A stretch of DNA of 64,000 nucleotides from Sphingomonas sp. GTDB taxonomy: Bacteria; Pseudomonadota; Alphaproteobacteria; Sphingomonadales; Sphingomonadaceae. The notes under the pieces were generated by a model that searched no databases, was not told where the DNA came from, and saw only the letters and a program-made list of their open reading frames with translations. Location of the stretch: positions 62,001 to 126,000 of the forward strand of contig NZ_JAGHZV010000013.1 in NCBI RefSeq assembly GCF_017745215.1. Reading direction: 5' to 3'. The translations under genes and the position numbers were made by a program. Positions 23,792 to 32,498 of this stretch are shown piece by piece; the stretch's first letter is position 1; every line of letters begins with the position of its first letter.

Positions 23792-24496
23792 TCAACGGAC
23801 GTAGCTGGCGCCGTTCACGTCCAGCACCGCGCCGGTCATCGAAGGGGGTGCCTCGAGTGCGCAGAAGCGCGCGATGGCGGCGACTTCCTCGGGATCGGCG
23901 ACGCGCCCGAGCGGGATATCGGCGAGCAGCTTCTCGCCGCCTCGGCTGGCGAGATAATCCTCGGCCATGCCGGTCATGGTGAAGCCGGGGCAGATCGCGA
24001 AGGCGAGGATGCCTTGCGCGGCATAGCCCCGCGCGATCGTCTTGGTCATCGCGACCATGCCGGCCTTGGACGCGGCATAATGCCAATGCGCCGGGCTGTC
24101 GCCGCGATAGGCGGCGCGGCTGGCGACGTTGACGAGGCGGCCGGGGCGCCCTTCGGCCTGCCAGTGGTGGACGGCCAGGCGGCTCAGCTCGGCGGCGGCA
24201 GTGAGGTTGATCCGCATCGTGCGCTCCCAGGCCGCGAGCCAGTCGGCATCGTCGAGGTCGAGCGGGGCGGCCTCGAACACGCCGGCGTTGTTGACGAGCA
24301 CGTCGATCCGGCCGTCGAGCGCGGCGAGTGCGCGCGCCCACAGGTCCTTCGCGGCGCCGGGTTGCGAGAGATCGGCGGCGAGGCCGCTCGCTGTGCCATG
24401 GCCGGCGACGCGTGCGCCGGCGGCGTCGAGCGTCGCGGCGATCGCGGCGCCGATGCCGCGGCTGCTGCCGGTGACGAGGATATGGGCGGGGGTCAT
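23792..24496 (-). CDS. Short-chain dehydrogenase/reductase
   Basis: A 234-residue classical SDR. The cofactor motif is VTGSSRGIGAAIA (8-20), NNAG is in VLVNNAGVFEA, the active site has the VNVAS serine and HYAASKAG with the Tyr-x-x-x-Lys pair, and ICPGFTMTGMA follows. The pattern is closest to 3-ketoacyl-reductase-like (FabG-type) enzymes, but the substrate is unknown. The ending LDVNGASYVR is typical. It is 45 bp downstream of the first chemoreceptor gene on the same strand and may be the tail of that transcript. Confidence 0.87.
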   Translation of the reverse strand: MTPAHILVTGSSRGIGAAIAATLDAAGARVAGHGTASGLAADLSQPGAAKDLWARALAALDGRIDVLVNNAGVFEAAPLDLDDADWLAAWERTMRINLTAAAELSRLAVHHWQAEGRPGRLVNVASRAAYRGDSPAHWHYAASKAGMVAMTKTIARGYAAQGILAFAICPGFTMTGMAEDYLASRGGEKLLADIPLGRVADPEEVAAIARFCALEAPPSMTGAVLDVNGASYVR

Positions 24497-24541: not shown

Positions 24542-25900
24542 TCAGGCCGCGACGCTGCTCGACAGATTCTCGGTCGCTTCGCGCAGGCGGTGGAGCCGGT
24601 CGTCGACTTCGGCGACGTCGCGCTGGAGCGTGTCGATCTCGCTGGTCACCGACTTGGTGTCCTCGCGGATCGCGCCGATCGTCGCCGACATCGAATCCGC
24701 CGCGAGCGCGGTCTCGTCGACCGCCGCGGTGATCGCGGTCACCGTCTGCGCCTGGACTTCCATCGCCGTGCGGATGCGGTTGGCGCTTTCCTGGACTTCC
24801 GAGACGGTGGTGCGGATCGAGGCATTGGTCTCGACCGTGGTCTTGGTCGCCGACTGGATCGAGGCGATCTTCGACGCAATGTCGTCGGTCGCGCGCGCGG
24901 TCTGGTTGGCGAGGCTCTTCACTTCCTGCGCCACGACTGCGAAGCCGCGGCCGGCGTCGCCGGCGCGCGCCGCCTCGATCGTCGCATTGAGCGCGAGGAG
25001 GTTGGTCTGGCCGGCGATGTCGCGGATCAGCCCGAGGATCGATTCGATCGACTTGGCATGGTCCGACAGCGCCTCGGACATCGTCACCGCGGCACCCGCC
25101 TGGCTGGCGGCGCGCGTCGCGATGTCGGCCGAAGCCTCGACTTCCAGCCGCGCATCCTCGATCGCGCGGATCAGTCCCGCCGCGGTCGACGCCGCTTCGC
25201 GCATCGCCACCGCCGACTGCTCCGCCGCCGCGGCGACTTCGCTCGCCTTGCCCAGCATCCCGCGCGCCGAGCTCGACGCGCCCTGCGCCTGGACGCGGAT
25301 GCGGTTGCCGAGCGCAGTGGCGATCTCGATCGATTCGGCGATCGCGCCGCGATAATGCTCGGACCGCTCGCTGCGTTCGCTGCGCTCGTCGCGCGACTCG
25401 GGCGCGATGTACCAGGCCATCAGGTCGGCCTCGAGCAGCGCGAGCCGCTGGACCACGTCGCACAGCCGCGCGAGCTTCTCGGGATCGTGGCCGACGCGTT
25501 CCTGGAGGATGCGCATCTCGACGCTATGGGCATAGGAGAAGGAGACGAGCATCGCCGGCAGCGGCACATGTGCGTTATGCCCCCCCTCGGCCTGGCGGAA
25601 GCTCCAGTCCATCCAGGCGTCGTCGAACGGCGCTTCGTACTTGGTGCGCGTATAGGCCATGCTGCGCTCGATCTGCTCCTCGAGGCGCGGGCCTTCGAGA
25701 TAGGCGGCGAGGCGCTGCGCGGCGGGCAGCGACAGGAAATGGCGCCAGAAGGCCTCGGCGATCTCGCGATAATGGTCGCGGAAGACCTCGGCGATCTCGG
25801 CGCACGACGCGGCGATCTGGCCGTCCCAGTCGAATTCCTTGAGCTGCTCGGCGATGGGCTTCGAACGTTCCGCCCCTCCCGCCTTCCCCTGACGTGCCAT
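24542..25900 (-). CDS. Soluble methyl-accepting chemotaxis protein, probable globin-coupled sensor
   Basis: A 452-residue cytoplasmic chemoreceptor with no membrane helix. The C-terminal half (about 205-452) is an MCP signalling domain with the hairpin tip [20 protein letters not shown]. The N-terminal 1-185 is helical and fits the protoglobin fold: His108 in [13 protein letters not shown] aligns with the proximal-haem histidine of globin-coupled sensors (H-x3-GLxP-xWY, with Pro seven residues after His). If so it senses oxygen or redox and acts on CheA/CheW. A charged run [12 protein letters not shown] (171-182) links the halves. It follows the second receptor gene by 11 bp. Signalling call firm; haem binding is inference. 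Confidence 0.88.
24656..25267 (-). repeat. Duplicated MCP signalling block, copy 1
   Basis: This 612-bp stretch codes for residues 212-415 of the first receptor and matches 26026-26637 in the adjacent receptor. The proteins differ at only about four positions across 204 residues (Leu/Met, Ser/Gly, Ser/Ala, Thr/Ala), and the DNA is also very similar, so duplication is recent or maintained by gene conversion. Confidence 0.9.
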
Positions 25901-25911
25901 CCAATTCTCTC

Positions 25912-27279
25912 CTATGCCGCGACCTTCGCGATGAAGTCGCTTGCACTACCCTTAAGACTGCCGAGCTCGGCATCGAGCGCGGTGAATCCCTGGCCGACGC
26001 GGTCGATCTCGCTGGCGACGGCTTCGGTGTCCTCGCGGATCGCGCCGATCGTCGCCGACATCGAATCCGCCGCGAGCGCCGTCTCGTCGACCGCCGCAGT
26101 GATCGCGGTCACCGTCTGCGCCTGGACTTCCATCGCGGCGCGGATGCGGTTGGCGCTCTCCTGCACTTCCGAGACGGTGGTGCGGATCGACGCGTTGGTC
26201 TCGACCGTGGTCTTGGTCGCCGACTGGATCGAGGCGATCTTGGCGGCGATATCGTCGGTCGCGCGCGCGGTCTGGTTGGCGAGGGACTTCACTTCCTGCG
26301 CGACCACCGCGAAGCCGCGGCCCGCGTCGCCAGCGCGCGCCGCCTCGATCGTGGCGTTGAGCGCGAGGAGGTTGGTCTGGCCGGCAATGTCGCGGATCAG
26401 GCCGAGGATCGATTCGATCGACTTGGCATGGTCCGACAGCGCCTCGGACATCGTCACCGCCGCGCCCGCCTGGCCGGCGGCGCGCGTCGCGATGTCGGCC
26501 GAGGCCTCGACTTCCATCCGGGCGTCCTCGATCGCGCGGATGAGGCCCGCCGCGGTCGACGCGGCCTCGCGCATCGCCACCGCCGACTGTTCGGCGGCCG
26601 CAGCGACTTCCGAGGCCTTGCCGAGCATGCCGCGCGCCGCCGCCGAGGTGTGGATCGCCTGGACGCGCAGCTGCTCGCCTTCGCGCGAGGCGCGCTGGAC
26701 GGTGCTGCCGATCGAGTCGCGGAACTGCGTCGCGAGCCGGTCGCGGTCGGCCTGGGCGTTGTATTCGCGATAGAGGTTGTAGAGCTCGACGGTGATGTCG
26801 CCCTCGAGCGCCGAGAGCCGCATCAGCGTGTCGATCAGCGTCGCGAGCTTGGGGCTGTCCGAGCCCAGCCGGCGCATCAGCACTTCGAGCGCGGCGCGGT
26901 CGCTCGCGCTGATCATCGAGAGCAGCGCCATCGGCGGCACGTTCTCGGAGTAAGCGGCAGCGACCGAGCGCTCGATCGACTCGACCCAGGCGGTGCCCGA
27001 GGTGTCGAGGAAGCGGTTGCGCAGGAACACCACGCCGACGTCGACCATCTTCTCGGTCTCGGCCGGAGCCCAGTTGCGCTGATCGGCGAAGCAGCGGAGC
27101 CACTGCTGCCAGTAAGCGTCCGCGATCGCGCGGATCTCGGGCTCGAGCACGTCCCACGCCTCGCGGCTCGAATGCATCAGCGAGCCGTCGAAATCGAAGA
27201 TCCGCAGGCGTGAGCGGATGTCGATCTCGGCCGCCATGGCGCCGGGGGCGGGAAGATGCTTGGTCAAGGTCGCGCTCAT
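25912..27279 (-). CDS. Soluble methyl-accepting chemotaxis protein, paralogue with altered sensor domain
   Basis: A 455-residue cytoplasmic chemoreceptor whose signalling half (about 215-418) is almost identical to that of the next gene, while the N-terminal 1-195 is diverged. The N-terminal domain keeps the same helical layout ([16 protein letters not shown], then [20 protein letters not shown]), but Tyr110 and Asn113 stand where the neighbour has His108 and His111, so it probably cannot bind haem in the same way. The start at 27279 is chosen at the first ATG with a purine-rich GGGGGA upstream; Met15 (MAAEIDIRS) is an alternative. It heads the run to the second receptor and SDR. Confidence 0.87.
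26026..26637 (-). repeat. Duplicated MCP signalling block, copy 2
   Basis: Partner of 24656-25267; it codes for residues 215-418 of the upstream receptor. Identity stops sharply at ARGMLGK on one side and at GAIREDT on the other, leaving sensor domains and extreme C-termini different. Confidence 0.9.
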
Positions 27280-27664: not shown

Positions 27665-28087
27665 TTGGCCAGCCCCGACAAACCCGATCGCCCGATTTCG
27701 CCGCACCTGACGGCGTATAAATGGGGCCCGCACATGGCAGTCTCGATCATCCACCGCGCCACCGGCACGGTGATGGGCACGATCGGCGCGCTGGTCTTCA
27801 CCTGGTGGCTGGTCTCGCTCGCCGCCGGCCCGGCGATGTACGGCGAGTTCCTCGACGTGTTTACCTACCAGTCGGGCAAGCTCAACGTCGTCGGCTGGGT
27901 GTTCGGCATCGGCTTCAGCTGGACGCTGTTCCAGCACATGGGCTCGGGCGTGCGCCACTTCTTCCTCGACGAGGGCGCGAACTTCGAGCTGAAGGGCAAC
28001 AAGGCCAGCTCGATCGCCGCCTTCGTCTTCGGCATCGTCGCCACGCTGGCGTTCTGGATCCTGCTCTGGGAGAAGCTCAATGGGTAA
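27665..28087 (+). CDS. sdhC: Succinate dehydrogenase cytochrome b556 subunit
   Basis: A 140-residue membrane anchor of complex II. The start is taken as TTG at 27665 because AAAGGAA lies seven bases upstream and the protein then begins with the family's RPISPHLTAYKW stretch; no ATG fits. SIIHRATGTVMG (about 24-35) is the quinone-site signature, and HMGSGVRHFFLD (about 91-102) holds the haem-ligand histidine. Three membrane helices are seen (about 31-50, 70-92, 113-135). It overlaps sdhD by eight bases and heads the sdhCDA unit. Confidence 0.93.
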   Translation: MASPDKPDRPISPHLTAYKWGPHMAVSIIHRATGTVMGTIGALVFTWWLVSLAAGPAMYGEFLDVFTYQSGKLNVVGWVFGIGFSWTLFQHMGSGVRHFFLDEGANFELKGNKASSIAAFVFGIVATLAFWILLWEKLNG

Positions 28088-28466
28088 CGGCACCCCGATC
28101 GGCCAGGTCCGCGGGCTCGGTTCCGCCAAGGAAGGCGCGCACCATTGGTGGCAGCAGCGGCTGACCGCCGGCGCCAACCTCGTCCTCATGCTGTGGTTCG
28201 TGATCAGCGTCGCGCTGCTCCCGGCCTATGACTATGCCACGATCGCCGCCTGGCTCTCGTCGCCGCTCGCCGCGGTGCCGCTGATCCTGCTGGTCGGCAC
28301 CGTCTGCTACCATATCCGCCTGGGCCTCCAGGTCGTGATCGAGGATTACCAGCACGACGAGACGCGCATCGTGATGATCGTGCTGCTCAACTTCTTCACG
28401 ATCGCGATCGCGGTCACCGCGCTCTTCTCGATCCTCAAGATCGCCCTCACCTCGACTCCTGCCTGA
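28080..28466 (+). CDS. sdhD: Succinate dehydrogenase hydrophobic anchor subunit
   Basis: A 128-residue membrane protein with three helices that anchors SdhA/SdhB and shares the haem with SdhC. Recognised from [19 protein letters not shown] at the N-terminus, the [14 protein letters not shown] stretch (about 77-90) with the second haem histidine and quinone-site residues, and its position. The start overlaps the sdhC stop. The sdhA ATG follows 10 bp after its stop. Confidence 0.94.
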
Positions 28467-28476
28467 GGCCCAGCCC

Positions 28477-30279
28477 ATGCCCGCTGCGTACAAGATCATC
28501 GACCACAGCTACGACGCCGTCGTCGTGGGTGCCGGCGGCTCGGGGCTGCGCGCCACGATGGGGATCGCCGAAGCGGGGCTGAAGACCGCGTGCATCACCA
28601 AGGTGTTCCCCACCCGCAGCCACACCGTGGCGGCGCAGGGGGGCATCGCCGCGAGCCTGGGCAACAATTCGCCCGATCATTGGTCGTGGCACATGTTCGA
28701 CACGGTCAAGGGCTCGGACTGGCTCGGCGACCAGGACGCGATCGAGTACATGGTCCGCGAGGCGCCCGCGGCGGTCTATGAGCTCGAGCACGCCGGCGTG
28801 CCGTTCAGCCGCAACGACAACGGCACCATCTACCAGCGCCCGTTCGGCGGGCACATGCAGAACATGGGCGAGGGCCCGCCGGTGCAGCGCACCTGCGCCG
28901 CGGCCGACCGCACCGGCCATGCGATGCTCCACGCGCTCTACCAGCAGAGCCTGCGCTATTCGGCCGATTTCTTCGTCGAATATTTCGCGCTCGACCTGAT
29001 CATGGAGAACGGAGCCTGCCGGGGCGTGATCGCGCTGTGCATGGAGGACGGCTCGATCCACCGCTTCCGCAGCCATGCGGTGGTGCTGGCGACCGGCGGC
29101 GGCGGGCGCGTCTACCAGTCGGCGACCTCGGCGCACACCTGCACCGGCGACGGCAACGGCATGGCGCTGCGCGCCGGCCTGGCGCTGCAGGACATGGAGT
29201 TCGTCCAGTTCCACCCGACCGGCATCTACGGCGCGGGCGTGCTGATCACCGAAGGCGCGCGCGGCGAGGGCGGCTATCTCACCAACTCCGAGGGCGAGCG
29301 CTTCATGGAGCGCTATGCCCCCTCCGCCAAGGACCTCGCCAGCCGTGACGTCGTCGCGCGCTCGATGGCGATGGAGATCCGCGAGGGCCGCGGCGTGGGC
29401 AAGGAGAAGGACCATATCTTCCTTCACTTGAACCACATCGACCCGAAGATCCTGCACGAGCGCCTGCCCGGCATCACCGAGACCGGCAAGATCTTCGCCG
29501 GCGTCGACCTGACCCGCCAGCCGCTGCCGGTGGTGCCGACGGTGCACTACAACATGGGCGGCATCCCGACCAACTACCACGGCGAAGTCGTCCAGCTGAA
29601 GGACGGCAATCCGGACGCGGTCGTCCCCGGGCTGTTTGCGGTGGGCGAGGCGGCCTGCGTCTCGGTCCACGGCGCCAACCGCCTGGGCTCCAACTCGCTG
29701 ATCGACCTGGTGGTGTTCGGCCGCGCGACCGGCCTGCGGCTCAAGGAGACGCTCAAGCCCAGCACGCCGCACGCGCCGCTGCCCGCGGGCTCGGAGGAGA
29801 TGGCGCTGACCCGGCTCGACTTCTTCCGCAACGCCAACAAGACCGAGCCGACCGCCGAGATCCGCAAGGACATGCAGAAGACGATGCAGAAGCACTGCGC
29901 CGTCTTCCGCGACAGCGCGCTGCTCACCGAGGGCTATCAGCACATGAAGTCGGTCTACGCCGCGATGCGCGACGTGAAGGTGACCGACCGCTCGCTGATC
30001 TGGAACACCGACCTCGTCGAGACGCTCGAGCTCGACAACCTGCTCGGCCAGGCGATGGTGACGATCGCGAGCGCCGAGAACCGCAAGGAAAGCCGCGGCG
30101 CACACATGCACGAGGACTTCCCCGAGCGCGACGACAAGACCTGGATGAAGCACACCATCGCGACCTGCGAGGGCTGGGGCGGCAAGGGCGGCGAGGTCAG
30201 GATCGACTACCGCCCGGTCCACGACTACACGCTCACCGACGAGATCGAGTACATCAAGCCGAAGAAGCGGGTGTATTGA
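28477..30279 (+). CDS. sdhA: Succinate dehydrogenase flavoprotein subunit
   Basis: A 600-residue flavoprotein that oxidises succinate to fumarate in the TCA cycle. The N-terminal dinucleotide fold is [17 protein letters not shown] (about 9-25); [16 protein letters not shown] holds the histidine that carries covalent [25 protein letters not shown], with the catalytic Arg region, and [12 protein letters not shown] are intact; [15 protein letters not shown] is near the C-terminus. Length matches the family. The iron-sulfur partner sdhB is not next but 8.4 kb downstream, an unusual split. An AT-rich gene begins 120 bp after the stop. Confidence 0.98.
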
Positions 30280-30398
30280 ACGTCGGGATCGAGACCTTTT
30301 CGCCATAGATACTTGAGCCCACAGCATCTGCTTTCTACGAGCAATTGCGTTTGGGGATTGCATTGCTATGCTCCGGCCCAAGAGGGGGAGGCCGGGGG

Positions 30399-31586
30399 AT
30401 GAGCCTAGCAAGTTGGCTTCATAAGTCGCCATATTGGCTTCGTTTTTTGCTGCTTGCATGTGCCGCGACCGGCATCAACATGCTTGGCTTGGCTTTGACC
30501 CAATGGTTGAGCTGGTCTCTTCTATTCTTCGACATGATCGGAACGGCTGTCGCCAGCCTGCTGGGTGGCGCCGTCGCCGGTATGCTCGTGGCTCTTGCAA
30601 GCGGAGCTTTGGGCAGCCTCCTGGCCCACGACCCCACCTACCTTGTGTATGGATATGTCAACATCATCGGGGCGCTCGTGTGGGCGGTCCTGCCGAGAAC
30701 CGGGCGGCCGATATTTGGCTGCTACGTCTTCAATCTGGGAGACGGAGCGACTTATCGCAGGGCATTCTTCAATATCATGGTTCTCGGTATAGTCGCCGGA
30801 CTCGCGACATCCTTGGCGGCGTGGACGATAACCGTATTCGTTCTACCGGCGTCAGGGGACAACCTATCCTTCGGAGCCAATACCGCGGCGGGAACGAACA
30901 ATAGGGTGCTTACGGCGGCCCTGATCGGGATCACTCATGCCGATACGGGTATAGTCCAGAAGATGGTTATCCTGTTATCTTCTTCTATAACGAATATCCC
31001 AGATAAAATTATTGCTACCGCGAGCGCCGTATTGATCATAATATCCTATAAAACACTCCCTAACTACAAAAGACAAAAAATCACGATCAGGTCAAATTCG
31101 ACTCCTATTGGAGCAACAATTGTCTCGAATAGATTTTTGTTTTTGGCCATTTGCGCCGGCCAGGCGGTTTTATTTGTTTATGTTATACGCAGACTCACCG
31201 GATGGGATCATCATACCGGAGTGATGGCACTACTTAGCGCCATCGTCGCCATACTGATTCTCGCTGACCCCGTATATTTCAGATCGGTTGACAGAGATCT
31301 TTCGGTATCTCCCGAAATATGCGAATTATTCTATGAAATCCCTCAATCATTTCATATGGGTCACCACAAAGCGGTATTTGAGGATATTCTCAAGCTCATG
31401 GCCGTTTCGGTGTCGGGCGCGAGTTTCATCATCGCCATCAGTAGCGGATCCGCCTGCGTGCCCGAGACAATGGAGAGCTTCGTGCGCTGCGGACCGTTGT
31501 ACGAACTTGCCGCGGTAAACGCTCTGATTGTGACTGGATTCCGATATATGTGCGTGGTGTTCATGCGCGTGAGCAACAGGAATTAA
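30399..31586 (+). CDS. AT-rich multi-pass membrane protein of unknown function
   Basis: Not recognised. The 395-residue protein has about nine to ten predicted membrane helices. The N-terminal half (FFDMIGTAVASLLGGAVAGMLVALASGALGSLL-type pattern at about 43-75, then YLVYGYVNIIGALVWAVLPR) has the Gly-rich look of ECF-transporter S components or LytS-type 5TM domains, but that is only resemblance. The C-terminal half (about 230-395) is less hydrophobic with NRFLFLAICAGQAVLFVYVIRR and further helices. Codon use is strikingly AT-rich, with runs of A and T around 30960-31150 and ATA/AAA codons rare in the rest of the window, which points to recent acquisition. The start at 30399 follows GGGGGAGGCCGGGGG. 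Confidence 0.7.
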   Translation: MSLASWLHKSPYWLRFLLLACAATGINMLGLALTQWLSWSLLFFDMIGTAVASLLGGAVAGMLVALASGALGSLLAHDPTYLVYGYVNIIGALVWAVLPRTGRPIFGCYVFNLGDGATYRRAFFNIMVLGIVAGLATSLAAWTITVFVLPASGDNLSFGANTAAGTNNRVLTAALIGITHADTGIVQKMVILLSSSITNIPDKIIATASAVLIIISYKTLPNYKRQKITIRSNSTPIGATIVSNRFLFLAICAGQAVLFVYVIRRLTGWDHHTGVMALLSAIVAILILADPVYFRSVDRDLSVSPEICELFYEIPQSFHMGHHKAVFEDILKLMAVSVSGASFIIAISSGSACVPETMESFVRCGPLYELAAVNALIVTGFRYMCVVFMRVSNRN

Positions 31587-31628
31587 GAAATCCTGTTCAA
31601 GATGCTCCTATCCGCGACAATCTCGGAC

Positions 31629-32498
31629 ATGATGATACGATATCTCTTTGCAATTCTGTTCGTCCTTGGTCCGGTGAGGGTTGATGAAGCGATCACGCCG
31701 CCGCCCCCGGCGCTCGGCCTCGATCCCTTCTACGCCAAATATCTCTCCGCCGGGGGCATCCCCGTGGTCGCCTCGGCGAAGGTGCCCGACAGGGCGTTGC
31801 GCATCACCGGCGAGATCATCGACGCGATGCTCGAGCACCGGCCCGACCTGCGCGCGGCGCTGGTGGCGATGCACCTGCGCGTCGGCGTGATGGCGCCCGA
31901 CGAGACCACCACCGACCTGCCCGAACAGCGCGACTGGAAGAAGCCGCCGCGCGACGCGCCGCAGCTCACCTTCTGCGAGCGGAAGCATTACGACGAGCGG
32001 ATCGGCCGCCTCACCGACCGGCAATATTGGGATGCCCGCGCCCGCGGCATGGCCGGGCTCTACACCACCGCCGCGACCGAGAACCTGCTCGGCGACCGCT
32101 CCTCGCGCTATTATGGCGAGAACATCTTCGTCCACGAGTTCGCGCACGACGTGCTGATGGCGATCCGCCAGGCCGACCCCGCGCTCTCGGCCGATGTCGA
32201 CCGCGCCTATGCCGAAGCCGTGCGCGCGGGGCGCTGGAAGGGCGAATATGCCGGCCTCAACGTCGACGAATATTGGGCCGAAGGCTCGCAGACCTGGTTC
32301 AACTCCAACTATCTCGCGGTGATGGACGGCGTGGAAGTGCTCTCCGACGACGATCTGCGGCGCTACGATGCCGGGCTCTACGCGGCGCTCGCCCGCGCTT
32401 ACGGCACGAACCATCACATTGCGGCGGACGCCTTCTACCAGCACCCCGCGCGCGTGCCGCCCGGGCCGATCCCCAAGAACACCGCTGAGGTCTGCTAG
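31629..32498 (+). CDS. Exported HExxH zinc-metallopeptidase-like protein
   Basis: A protein of about 289 residues with a signal sequence (IRYLFAILFVLGPVRVDEA) and the zinc motif HEFAH (169-173), followed 40-odd residues later by DEYWAEGSQTWF, where Glu218 (or Glu214) would be the third ligand, a gluzincin-type arrangement. Proteolysis outside the cytoplasm is inferred. The first 50-odd bases are AT-rich like the preceding gene, then composition returns to high GC. The start is uncertain: ATGs at 31602, 31629 and 31632 are all open and none has a strong ribosome-binding site. It is first of three consecutive predicted peptidase genes. Confidence 0.75.
   Translation: MMIRYLFAILFVLGPVRVDEAITPPPPALGLDPFYAKYLSAGGIPVVASAKVPDRALRITGEIIDAMLEHRPDLRAALVAMHLRVGVMAPDETTTDLPEQRDWKKPPRDAPQLTFCERKHYDERIGRLTDRQYWDARARGMAGLYTTAATENLLGDRSSRYYGENIFVHEFAHDVLMAIRQADPALSADVDRAYAEAVRAGRWKGEYAGLNVDEYWAEGSQTWFNSNYLAVMDGVEVLSDDDLRRYDAGLYAALARAYGTNHHIAADAFYQHPARVPPGPIPKNTAEVC

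Follow-up and report, generated by a model that had tools for sequence, protein, structure and literature searches.

A tandem pair of genes in Sphingomonas sp., encoding receptors B and A, very probably represents an old duplication of a cytoplasmic chemoreceptor, in which globin-fold sensor domains, most likely haem-less, have diverged while the signalling hairpins have been repeatedly homogenised by recombination between two 612-bp direct repeats. The sensors descend as two separate lineages and the output halves do not.

Receptor pair and genomic setting

The window, that is the whole stretch of 64,000 nucleotides that was analysed, had been described in a preliminary way as carrying tandem soluble chemoreceptors at 24542-27279. 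Two open reading frames are indeed found there, both on the minus strand, B being transcribed before A with a spacing of 11 bp (Table 1). Both match the MCP signalling domain (PF00015; 111.5 and 110.9 bits in the pair, for a curated cut-off of 34.6), neither contains a transmembrane-like stretch (maximum 19-residue hydropathy of 0.97 and 1.21), and an NCBIfam search with the two proteins gave nothing above the curated cut-offs. The sensors are only weakly related, as had been noticed from the start: the Pfam Protoglobin score is 33.1 bits for A, above the cut-off of 25, and 20.4 bits for B, below it.

The signalling halves had been said to differ at about four positions over A212-415 and B215-418. 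Codon alignment gives 4 amino-acid differences in 204 (A252 L/M, 266 S/G, 343 S/A and 378 T/A), together with 36 synonymous codons, and the hairpin tip (A285-340) does not differ at all. Mapping of the conversion limits by DNA alignment of the two copies, as initially suggested, shows that identity collapses on both sides of this segment, from 0.926 within the repeat to 0.43 just N-terminal of it and 0.47 in the tail.

Table 1. Position of the receptor pair, its domains and its neighbours in the window
Feature	Position	Strand	Remarks
SDR-family oxidoreductase (presumed)	23792..24496	-	usual downstream neighbour; tight behind single receptor in 5/6 named chimeric loci
Receptor A	24542..25900	-	soluble predicted globin-fold sensor and MCP signalling domain (452 aa); transcribed after B, spacing 11 bp
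A-type tail, residues 416-452	24542..24655	-	occurs behind B sensor in apparent chimeras of relatives
A copy of 612-bp repeat (A212-415)	24656..25267	-	signalling hairpin under conversion
A sensor domain, residues 1-195	25316..25900	-	predicted GCS globin fold; distal W52, proximal G107, H108 next residue
Receptor B	25912..27279	-	soluble predicted globin-fold sensor and MCP signalling domain, 455 aa; first tandem gene
B-type tail, residues 419-455	25912..26025	-	separable from A-type tails genus-wide
B copy of 612-bp repeat (B215-418)	26026..26637	-	signalling hairpin under conversion
B sensor domain, residues 1-198	26686..27279	-	predicted GCS globin fold; distal W57, proximal A109, adjacent Y110
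sdhD-like gene of divergent sdh operon (presumed)	28080..28466	+	conserved upstream neighbour; sdhC just before, sdhA-like ORF 28477-30279

Among 120 related genomes, 73 belong to the same genus; with the own genome included, the B sensor is present in 70 of these 73 and the A sensor, counted at E below 1e-25, in 44. Named relatives with a B sensor, taken as the best 80 of 191, belong for the most part to Sphingomonas; a few are Stakelama, Hephaestia, Sphingosinithalassobacter or unclassified records. When 296 genomes were drawn evenly across the order, the B-sensor profile matched in 59 of them; all strong matches (E 4e-56 or better) came from the same genus, and the best match outside it reached 5.6e-28. 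The position of the locus is fixed across the named-relative set: in all 68 loci whose flanks are complete, B is bordered on its far side by sdhC and sdhD, and in 57 of the 68 the receptors are followed by the SDR gene. The assignments of the sdhC, sdhD and sdhA genes, and that of the gene at 23792..24496 to the SDR family, are putative. The window also contains a membrane-protein-like ORF of 413 aa (30345-31586, plus strand), possibly acquired, in a stretch of clearly lower G+C content (0.563 for 30001-32000, about 0.66-0.75 elsewhere in the window).

Gene conversion of the signalling half

Two sets of pairs were compared, 41 complete pairs from the related genomes (G set) and 56 pairs from the named-relative loci and the window (named set). 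They overlap (for instance, G004 is L128, G046 is L134, G041 is L150, G002 is L152 and G063 is L206) and are thus not independent. The A gene of G034 and a B fragment of G020, whose signalling half is not in the same ORF, were left out of the former set, the partial pairs of G035 and G053 were also excluded, and the A gene of G060, which has an internal stop, was retained as the portion behind this stop. Thirteen named-relative genes were dropped before the 56 pairs were formed; they include both genes of L147, the A gene of L189 and the B gene of L199, each of which is spread over more than one ORF.

In the sensor tree of the 41-pair set, the A sensors form one clade (support 0.952) and the B sensors, with 6 dispersed copies, another (0.999); the 56 pairs give a perfect split between A and B. 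Sensors of the same genome are sisters in no pair of either set. The signalling halves behave differently, as 11 of the 41 pairs are within-genome sisters in the DNA tree (support 0.96-1.0) and in two further genomes A and B form a triplet clade with a third, dispersed copy. In the 56-pair set, 22 pairs are within-genome sisters, that of the window included (support 0.995); support exceeds 0.8 for 16 of the 22 and is 0.33-0.68 for four, and no value is given for the two pairs at zero distance. Closeness within a genome that is confined to one segment with sharp limits, by which gene conversion is recognised, is therefore seen in part of the pairs, among them that of the window. These results support the sequence of events proposed in the preliminary description, namely a duplication followed by sensor divergence, with conversion of the output half, as do the synonymous sites described below. 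The 612-bp direct repeats of A and B would recombine, and the signalling hairpins would in this way be rewritten to match.

The hairpin tip is nearly invariant across all copies (amino-acid difference of 0.002-0.017 in the tip bins), as would be expected if purifying selection alone kept the hairpins similar, with no conversion. This explanation is hardly credible and we reject it, because synonymous sites are homogenised within genomes too. Over the 56 pairs, the synonymous difference is 0.237 within pairs and 0.365 when A is combined with the B of a shuffled genome, none of 5000 shuffles being as low, and the similarity of the A and B signalling halves thus exceeds chance. At these sites, the own B is the nearest one for 29 of the 56 A genes in the signalling half and for only 2 of the 56 in the sensor. 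Moreover, in the pairs of L133 and L148, the two halves are identical at 204/204 codons, that is over all 612 bp, which also speaks against selection alone. The identical runs of these two pairs, which are the most recent conversions, measure 615 and 621 bp and stop at the same point, codon 415. That within-genome identity could be an artefact of assembly is countered by genomes in few contigs with near-identical halves: G314 (2 contigs) has no amino-acid difference and 1 synonymous difference, G045 has 1 and 14, and G033 has 6 and 12. Least credible of all is that every lineage recently duplicated B to make A anew, which would leave no need for conversion: the signalling halves of many pairs are mutual closest relatives, but the single A-sensor clade and the perfect A/B split of the sensor tree reject it, and the A sensor is no closer to the B sensor of its own genome (21.7% identity) than to that of other genomes (21.5%).

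All these data support conversion recurring across the genus. It is episodic, and old or incomplete in many lineages, since 34 of the 56 named-set pairs are not within-genome sisters in the signalling-half tree and several clades, such as L191-L193 and G009/G037/G042, keep the orthologous order, A grouping with A and B with B.

A distinct pattern was observed in eight genomes (L091, L095, L090, L094, L093, L096, L097 and L098, which are G009, G037, G042, G067, G005, G059, G060 and G035, respectively). The hairpins of their A and B agree for the most part at the tip and at both ends but diverge in two stretches, at about A248-276 and A361-383 (the latter unreadable in G035), which face each other across the hairpin, as though conversion had bypassed a paired stalk module. 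On the B-sensor tree, seven of the eight share a clade and G035 falls elsewhere. A frameshift behind the long difference blocks of G009, G005, G059 and G035 was excluded by codon reading. Such sparing of the stalk stretches may hold for only these eight genomes; as a general rule it is not supported, since the ratio of within- to between-genome synonymous difference does not increase there (0.51-0.77 along the hairpin) and both stretches vary among B orthologues too.

Single receptors and apparent chimeras

The tail behind residue 415 assigns 193 of 194 paired genes to the right receptor, A or B, in a count made on the very genes used to train the profiles; the tail profiles were also right on 6/6 new pairs outside the training (G314, G317, G320, G483, G527 and G534). 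With these profiles, a single receptor with a B sensor and an A-type tail is found in ten assemblies (G002, G004, G013, G014, G036, G041, G046, L140, L143 and G479), and four of the chimeric G genomes recur as named loci (L152, L128, L150 and L134). The other single receptors with a readable tail carry that of B and are no rarer, amounting to 13 of 20 for the G set and 6 of 12 for the named set, G034 with its broken A being left out; further ones occur in a later batch of genomes. The only single-contig genome with a single receptor in that batch, G313, has a B tail, as does the single-contig G049, which counts against a deletion origin of single receptors; in the later batch, which includes G313 and G479, a receptor was judged single on the fetched stretch alone and this call is hence weaker, the contig of G535 even ending close behind B.

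The chimeras support the view, dependent on the quality of the assemblies, that the repeats also recombine so as to delete what lies between them. A deletion between the 612-bp repeats would remove the A sensor and leave one receptor in which the B sensor is joined to the tail of A. The six named chimeric loci occupy the same site behind sdhC, the SDR gene being about 1 kb further away in L152 than in the others. When L140, with a single receptor, is compared to the paired L138, a gap of 1,381 bp is seen with its junction within the repeat, and the flanks are 99.3% and 99.2% identical. Furthermore, all genomes that yielded an A gene (43/43) also have B, as expected if deletion between the repeats always removes the A sensor.

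Alternatively, these single receptors could result from the collapse of an intact pair during assembly. Judging by contig number or record title, none of the ten chimeric assemblies is closed (they are multi-contig or shotgun, and L140 and L150 are MAGs), the 612-bp repeat exceeds the length of short reads, and a further 13 records (8 named loci and 5 G genomes, some from the same assembly) are cut off by the end of a contig within B. We nevertheless regard a collapse as unlikely. The chimeras are found at no fewer than five branches of the B-sensor tree, which mixes both overlapping sets, their flanks join in register, and the pairs of L133 and L148 were assembled intact in spite of their identical halves. 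This doubt, which is the main one, is lessened by the search for an A sensor elsewhere in seven of the chimeric assemblies, in which the sole match was the B gene itself.

Deletion between the repeats may not be the only way in which A sensors are lost. They may also be lost by decay, because A looks broken and B intact in two genomes: in G034 (L035), the A sensor and its signalling half are in different frames, and in G060 (L097), the A gene has an internal TGA.

Fold of the sensors and the question of haem

For both sensors, the predicted structure is the globin fold of globin-coupled sensors (GCS). Models were obtained with AlphaFold2 with a mean pLDDT of 89.8 for A and 90.4 for B, and Foldseek gives GCS domains as the best solved matches of both. 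The best one is in each case AfGcHK (Z 19.3, rmsd 2.0 and 152 aligned residues for A; Z 16.0, rmsd 2.6 and 150 aligned residues for B). The protoglobin-like N-terminal fold of the preliminary description is thus upheld by structure prediction for the two receptors, and their folds are not unrelated to it. At the sequence level, the relationship is faint: a profile search of the PDB with the A and B sensor alignments listed no globin, and in single-sequence searches A had only weak globin matches (E 0.27 and 1.2) and B none. Sensor alignments took in, for the G set, 37 of 43 sensors for A and 43 of 69 for B and, for the named set, the window sensor with 52 of 57 A or with 56 of 76 B.

The preliminary description had gone further, in placing His108 of A at the proximal haem position, with a proline seven residues later as anchor, and in contrasting a haem sensor A to a haem-less sensor B whose combination would give a ratio-type readout. 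Both sensors have the GCS fold, A scores above the Protoglobin cut-off and B below, His108 does stand opposite Tyr110 in the alignment of A with B, and an alignment error of one residue is possible in that helix from sequence alone. To assign the haem columns, 26 A and 21 B sensors (from the named set, 25 A drawn at random from 59 and 20 B from 80, plus those of the window) were aligned with 30 Protoglobin-family domains taken from the wider class, which were chosen for their high Pfam score and whose haem binding is assumed. In this canonical set, the proximal His and the distal Tyr (B10) are each present in 30/30. The proximal column is occupied by G107 in the window A and by T (9), S (7), A (4), C (2) or G, R, N and V (1 each) in the 26 A sensors, so that none has a His; it is Ala in all 21 B sensors, including A109 of the window. 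Instead of the distal Tyr, Trp is found in 22 of the 26 A sensors (the others having L in 3 and Q in 1) and in 21/21 B sensors, with W52 and W57 in the window. A His in the G107 column is likewise absent from two groups of A sensors, one of 43 and one of 58. His108 is one residue past this column and is poorly kept, being a His in just 9/43 or 22/58 A relatives and Q, R, Y, D or another residue in the rest. The expected proline, P115, is variable as well (18/43 and 39/58); the conserved one is P113 (43/43 and 55/58). Finally, when AfGcHK is matched to A, weakly at the sequence level (E 0.27), the offset of 8 at the C-terminal end puts H99, which we take to be its haem ligand, on G107.

A haem-binding A acting through His108 next to a haem-less B is consequently very improbable, and the ratio-type readout loses its basis, as both proteins lack the haem residues. 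The two sensors are best read as putative non-haem globin sensors, because the proximal His and the distal Tyr are both replaced, a loss on which RsbR globins are called non-haem in PMC4976288. Such a globin pocket would hold no haem and would detect some other ligand, or else a conformational cue, in the manner of the RsbR-type non-haem globins.

Comparison with known systems

The predicted fold of the A and B sensors is shared with AfGcHK, HemAT and the Geobacter GCS, from which they differ by the replacement of proximal His and distal Tyr and by a sequence identity of only 8-20%. HemAT also couples a globin to an MCP output. 

Another parallel for the sensors is the RsbR stressosome, in which, according to PMC4976288 and PMC9765535, paralogues with variable N-terminal globin-fold sensors and a conserved output form one complex. 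Like RsbR (PMC4976288), A and B have a predicted globin fold devoid of the proximal His and distal Tyr. Unlike RsbR, with its STAS output and its genes scattered in B. subtilis, they have an MCP hairpin as output, are in tandem, and owe near-identical outputs to conversion. A and B may work like an RsbR-type sensor, yet they are not members of that family.

Regarding the outputs, PMC9769880 describes Tlp2, Tlp3 and Tlp4 of Campylobacter jejuni, which have identical signalling domains and sensor domains that are about 30% identical, and whose signalling tree follows the genome tree, in contrast to the sensor tree. A and B are similarly paralogous receptors with the same output and different sensors. 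They differ from these Tlp receptors, whose sensors are extracellular dCache domains, in being soluble, with predicted globin-fold sensors, in being in tandem, with conversion mapped, and in their apparent deletion chimeras; in that paper, 'gene conversion' is used a single time, to mean loss to a pseudogene.

Identical outputs with different sensors (Campylobacter, PMC9769880) and globin-fold sensors on a conserved output (RsbR, PMC9765535) are therefore already known. No report of this Sphingomonas pair was found in the open-licence literature, which suggests as new, within that literature, a soluble, putatively non-haem globin pair, a genus-wide map of conversion and apparent natural chimeras. 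The pair adds a genus-wide clade of apparently haem-less globin-fold chemoreceptors beside the sdh operon. It also offers many parallel natural experiments on receptors that probably share an array, in which sensors drift apart and the outputs undergo joint rewriting. Named strains already seem to harbour natural sensor/output chimeras; a single chimera, about 1.4 kb shorter across the receptors, is predicted for S. leidyi DSM 4733 and Sphingomonas sp. TDK1. The repeated conversion and the apparent collapse to one receptor make the cause of the Campylobacter-like pattern of identical outputs testable.

Chemotaxis partners and proposed functioning

A search for cheA and cheW elsewhere in the genome had been suggested. 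The own genome contains 15 MCPsignal matches, three CheA dimerisation domains and three flagellin matches above cut-off, and 12 CheW-domain matches, of which 11 are above cut-off. The contig that carries the window (C4) has no CheA or CheW match in this search, and these domains are thus encoded on other contigs.

As the tips of A and B are identical, both receptors most likely join the same CheA/CheW array, where they would report different intracellular cues via an equal output. Each sensor would respond to a cue of its own, and conversion would keep the two outputs interchangeable. It is possible, though we hold this only tentatively, that the pair is a self-renewing sensory module, in which conversion is favoured as it keeps two haem-less globin sensors interchangeable in one array, and in which a lineage can use the same repeats to lose the rapidly changing A sensor at a single stroke while keeping a working chimera. 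If so, the A-sensor lineage would serve as an exchangeable input attached to an output that stays fixed. Conversion may also simply follow, in a passive way, from the presence of tandem repeats.

A third receptor of the own genome (G000 contig C12:8612-9853; L004/L078) belongs to the same class and has a B-like sensor, with 38% identity. Its hairpin shares 173/204 residues with that of A, and 55/56 residues of the tip common to A and B. In two other genomes, G003 and G047, the dispersed copies group with A and B of their own genome in the signalling-half tree.

Six other receptors of the own genome (L005-L010; contigs C11, C38 and C3) share one near-identical hairpin tip of a second kind and end in D/E-W-x-x-F-like tails. 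They form a second receptor group with a common output.
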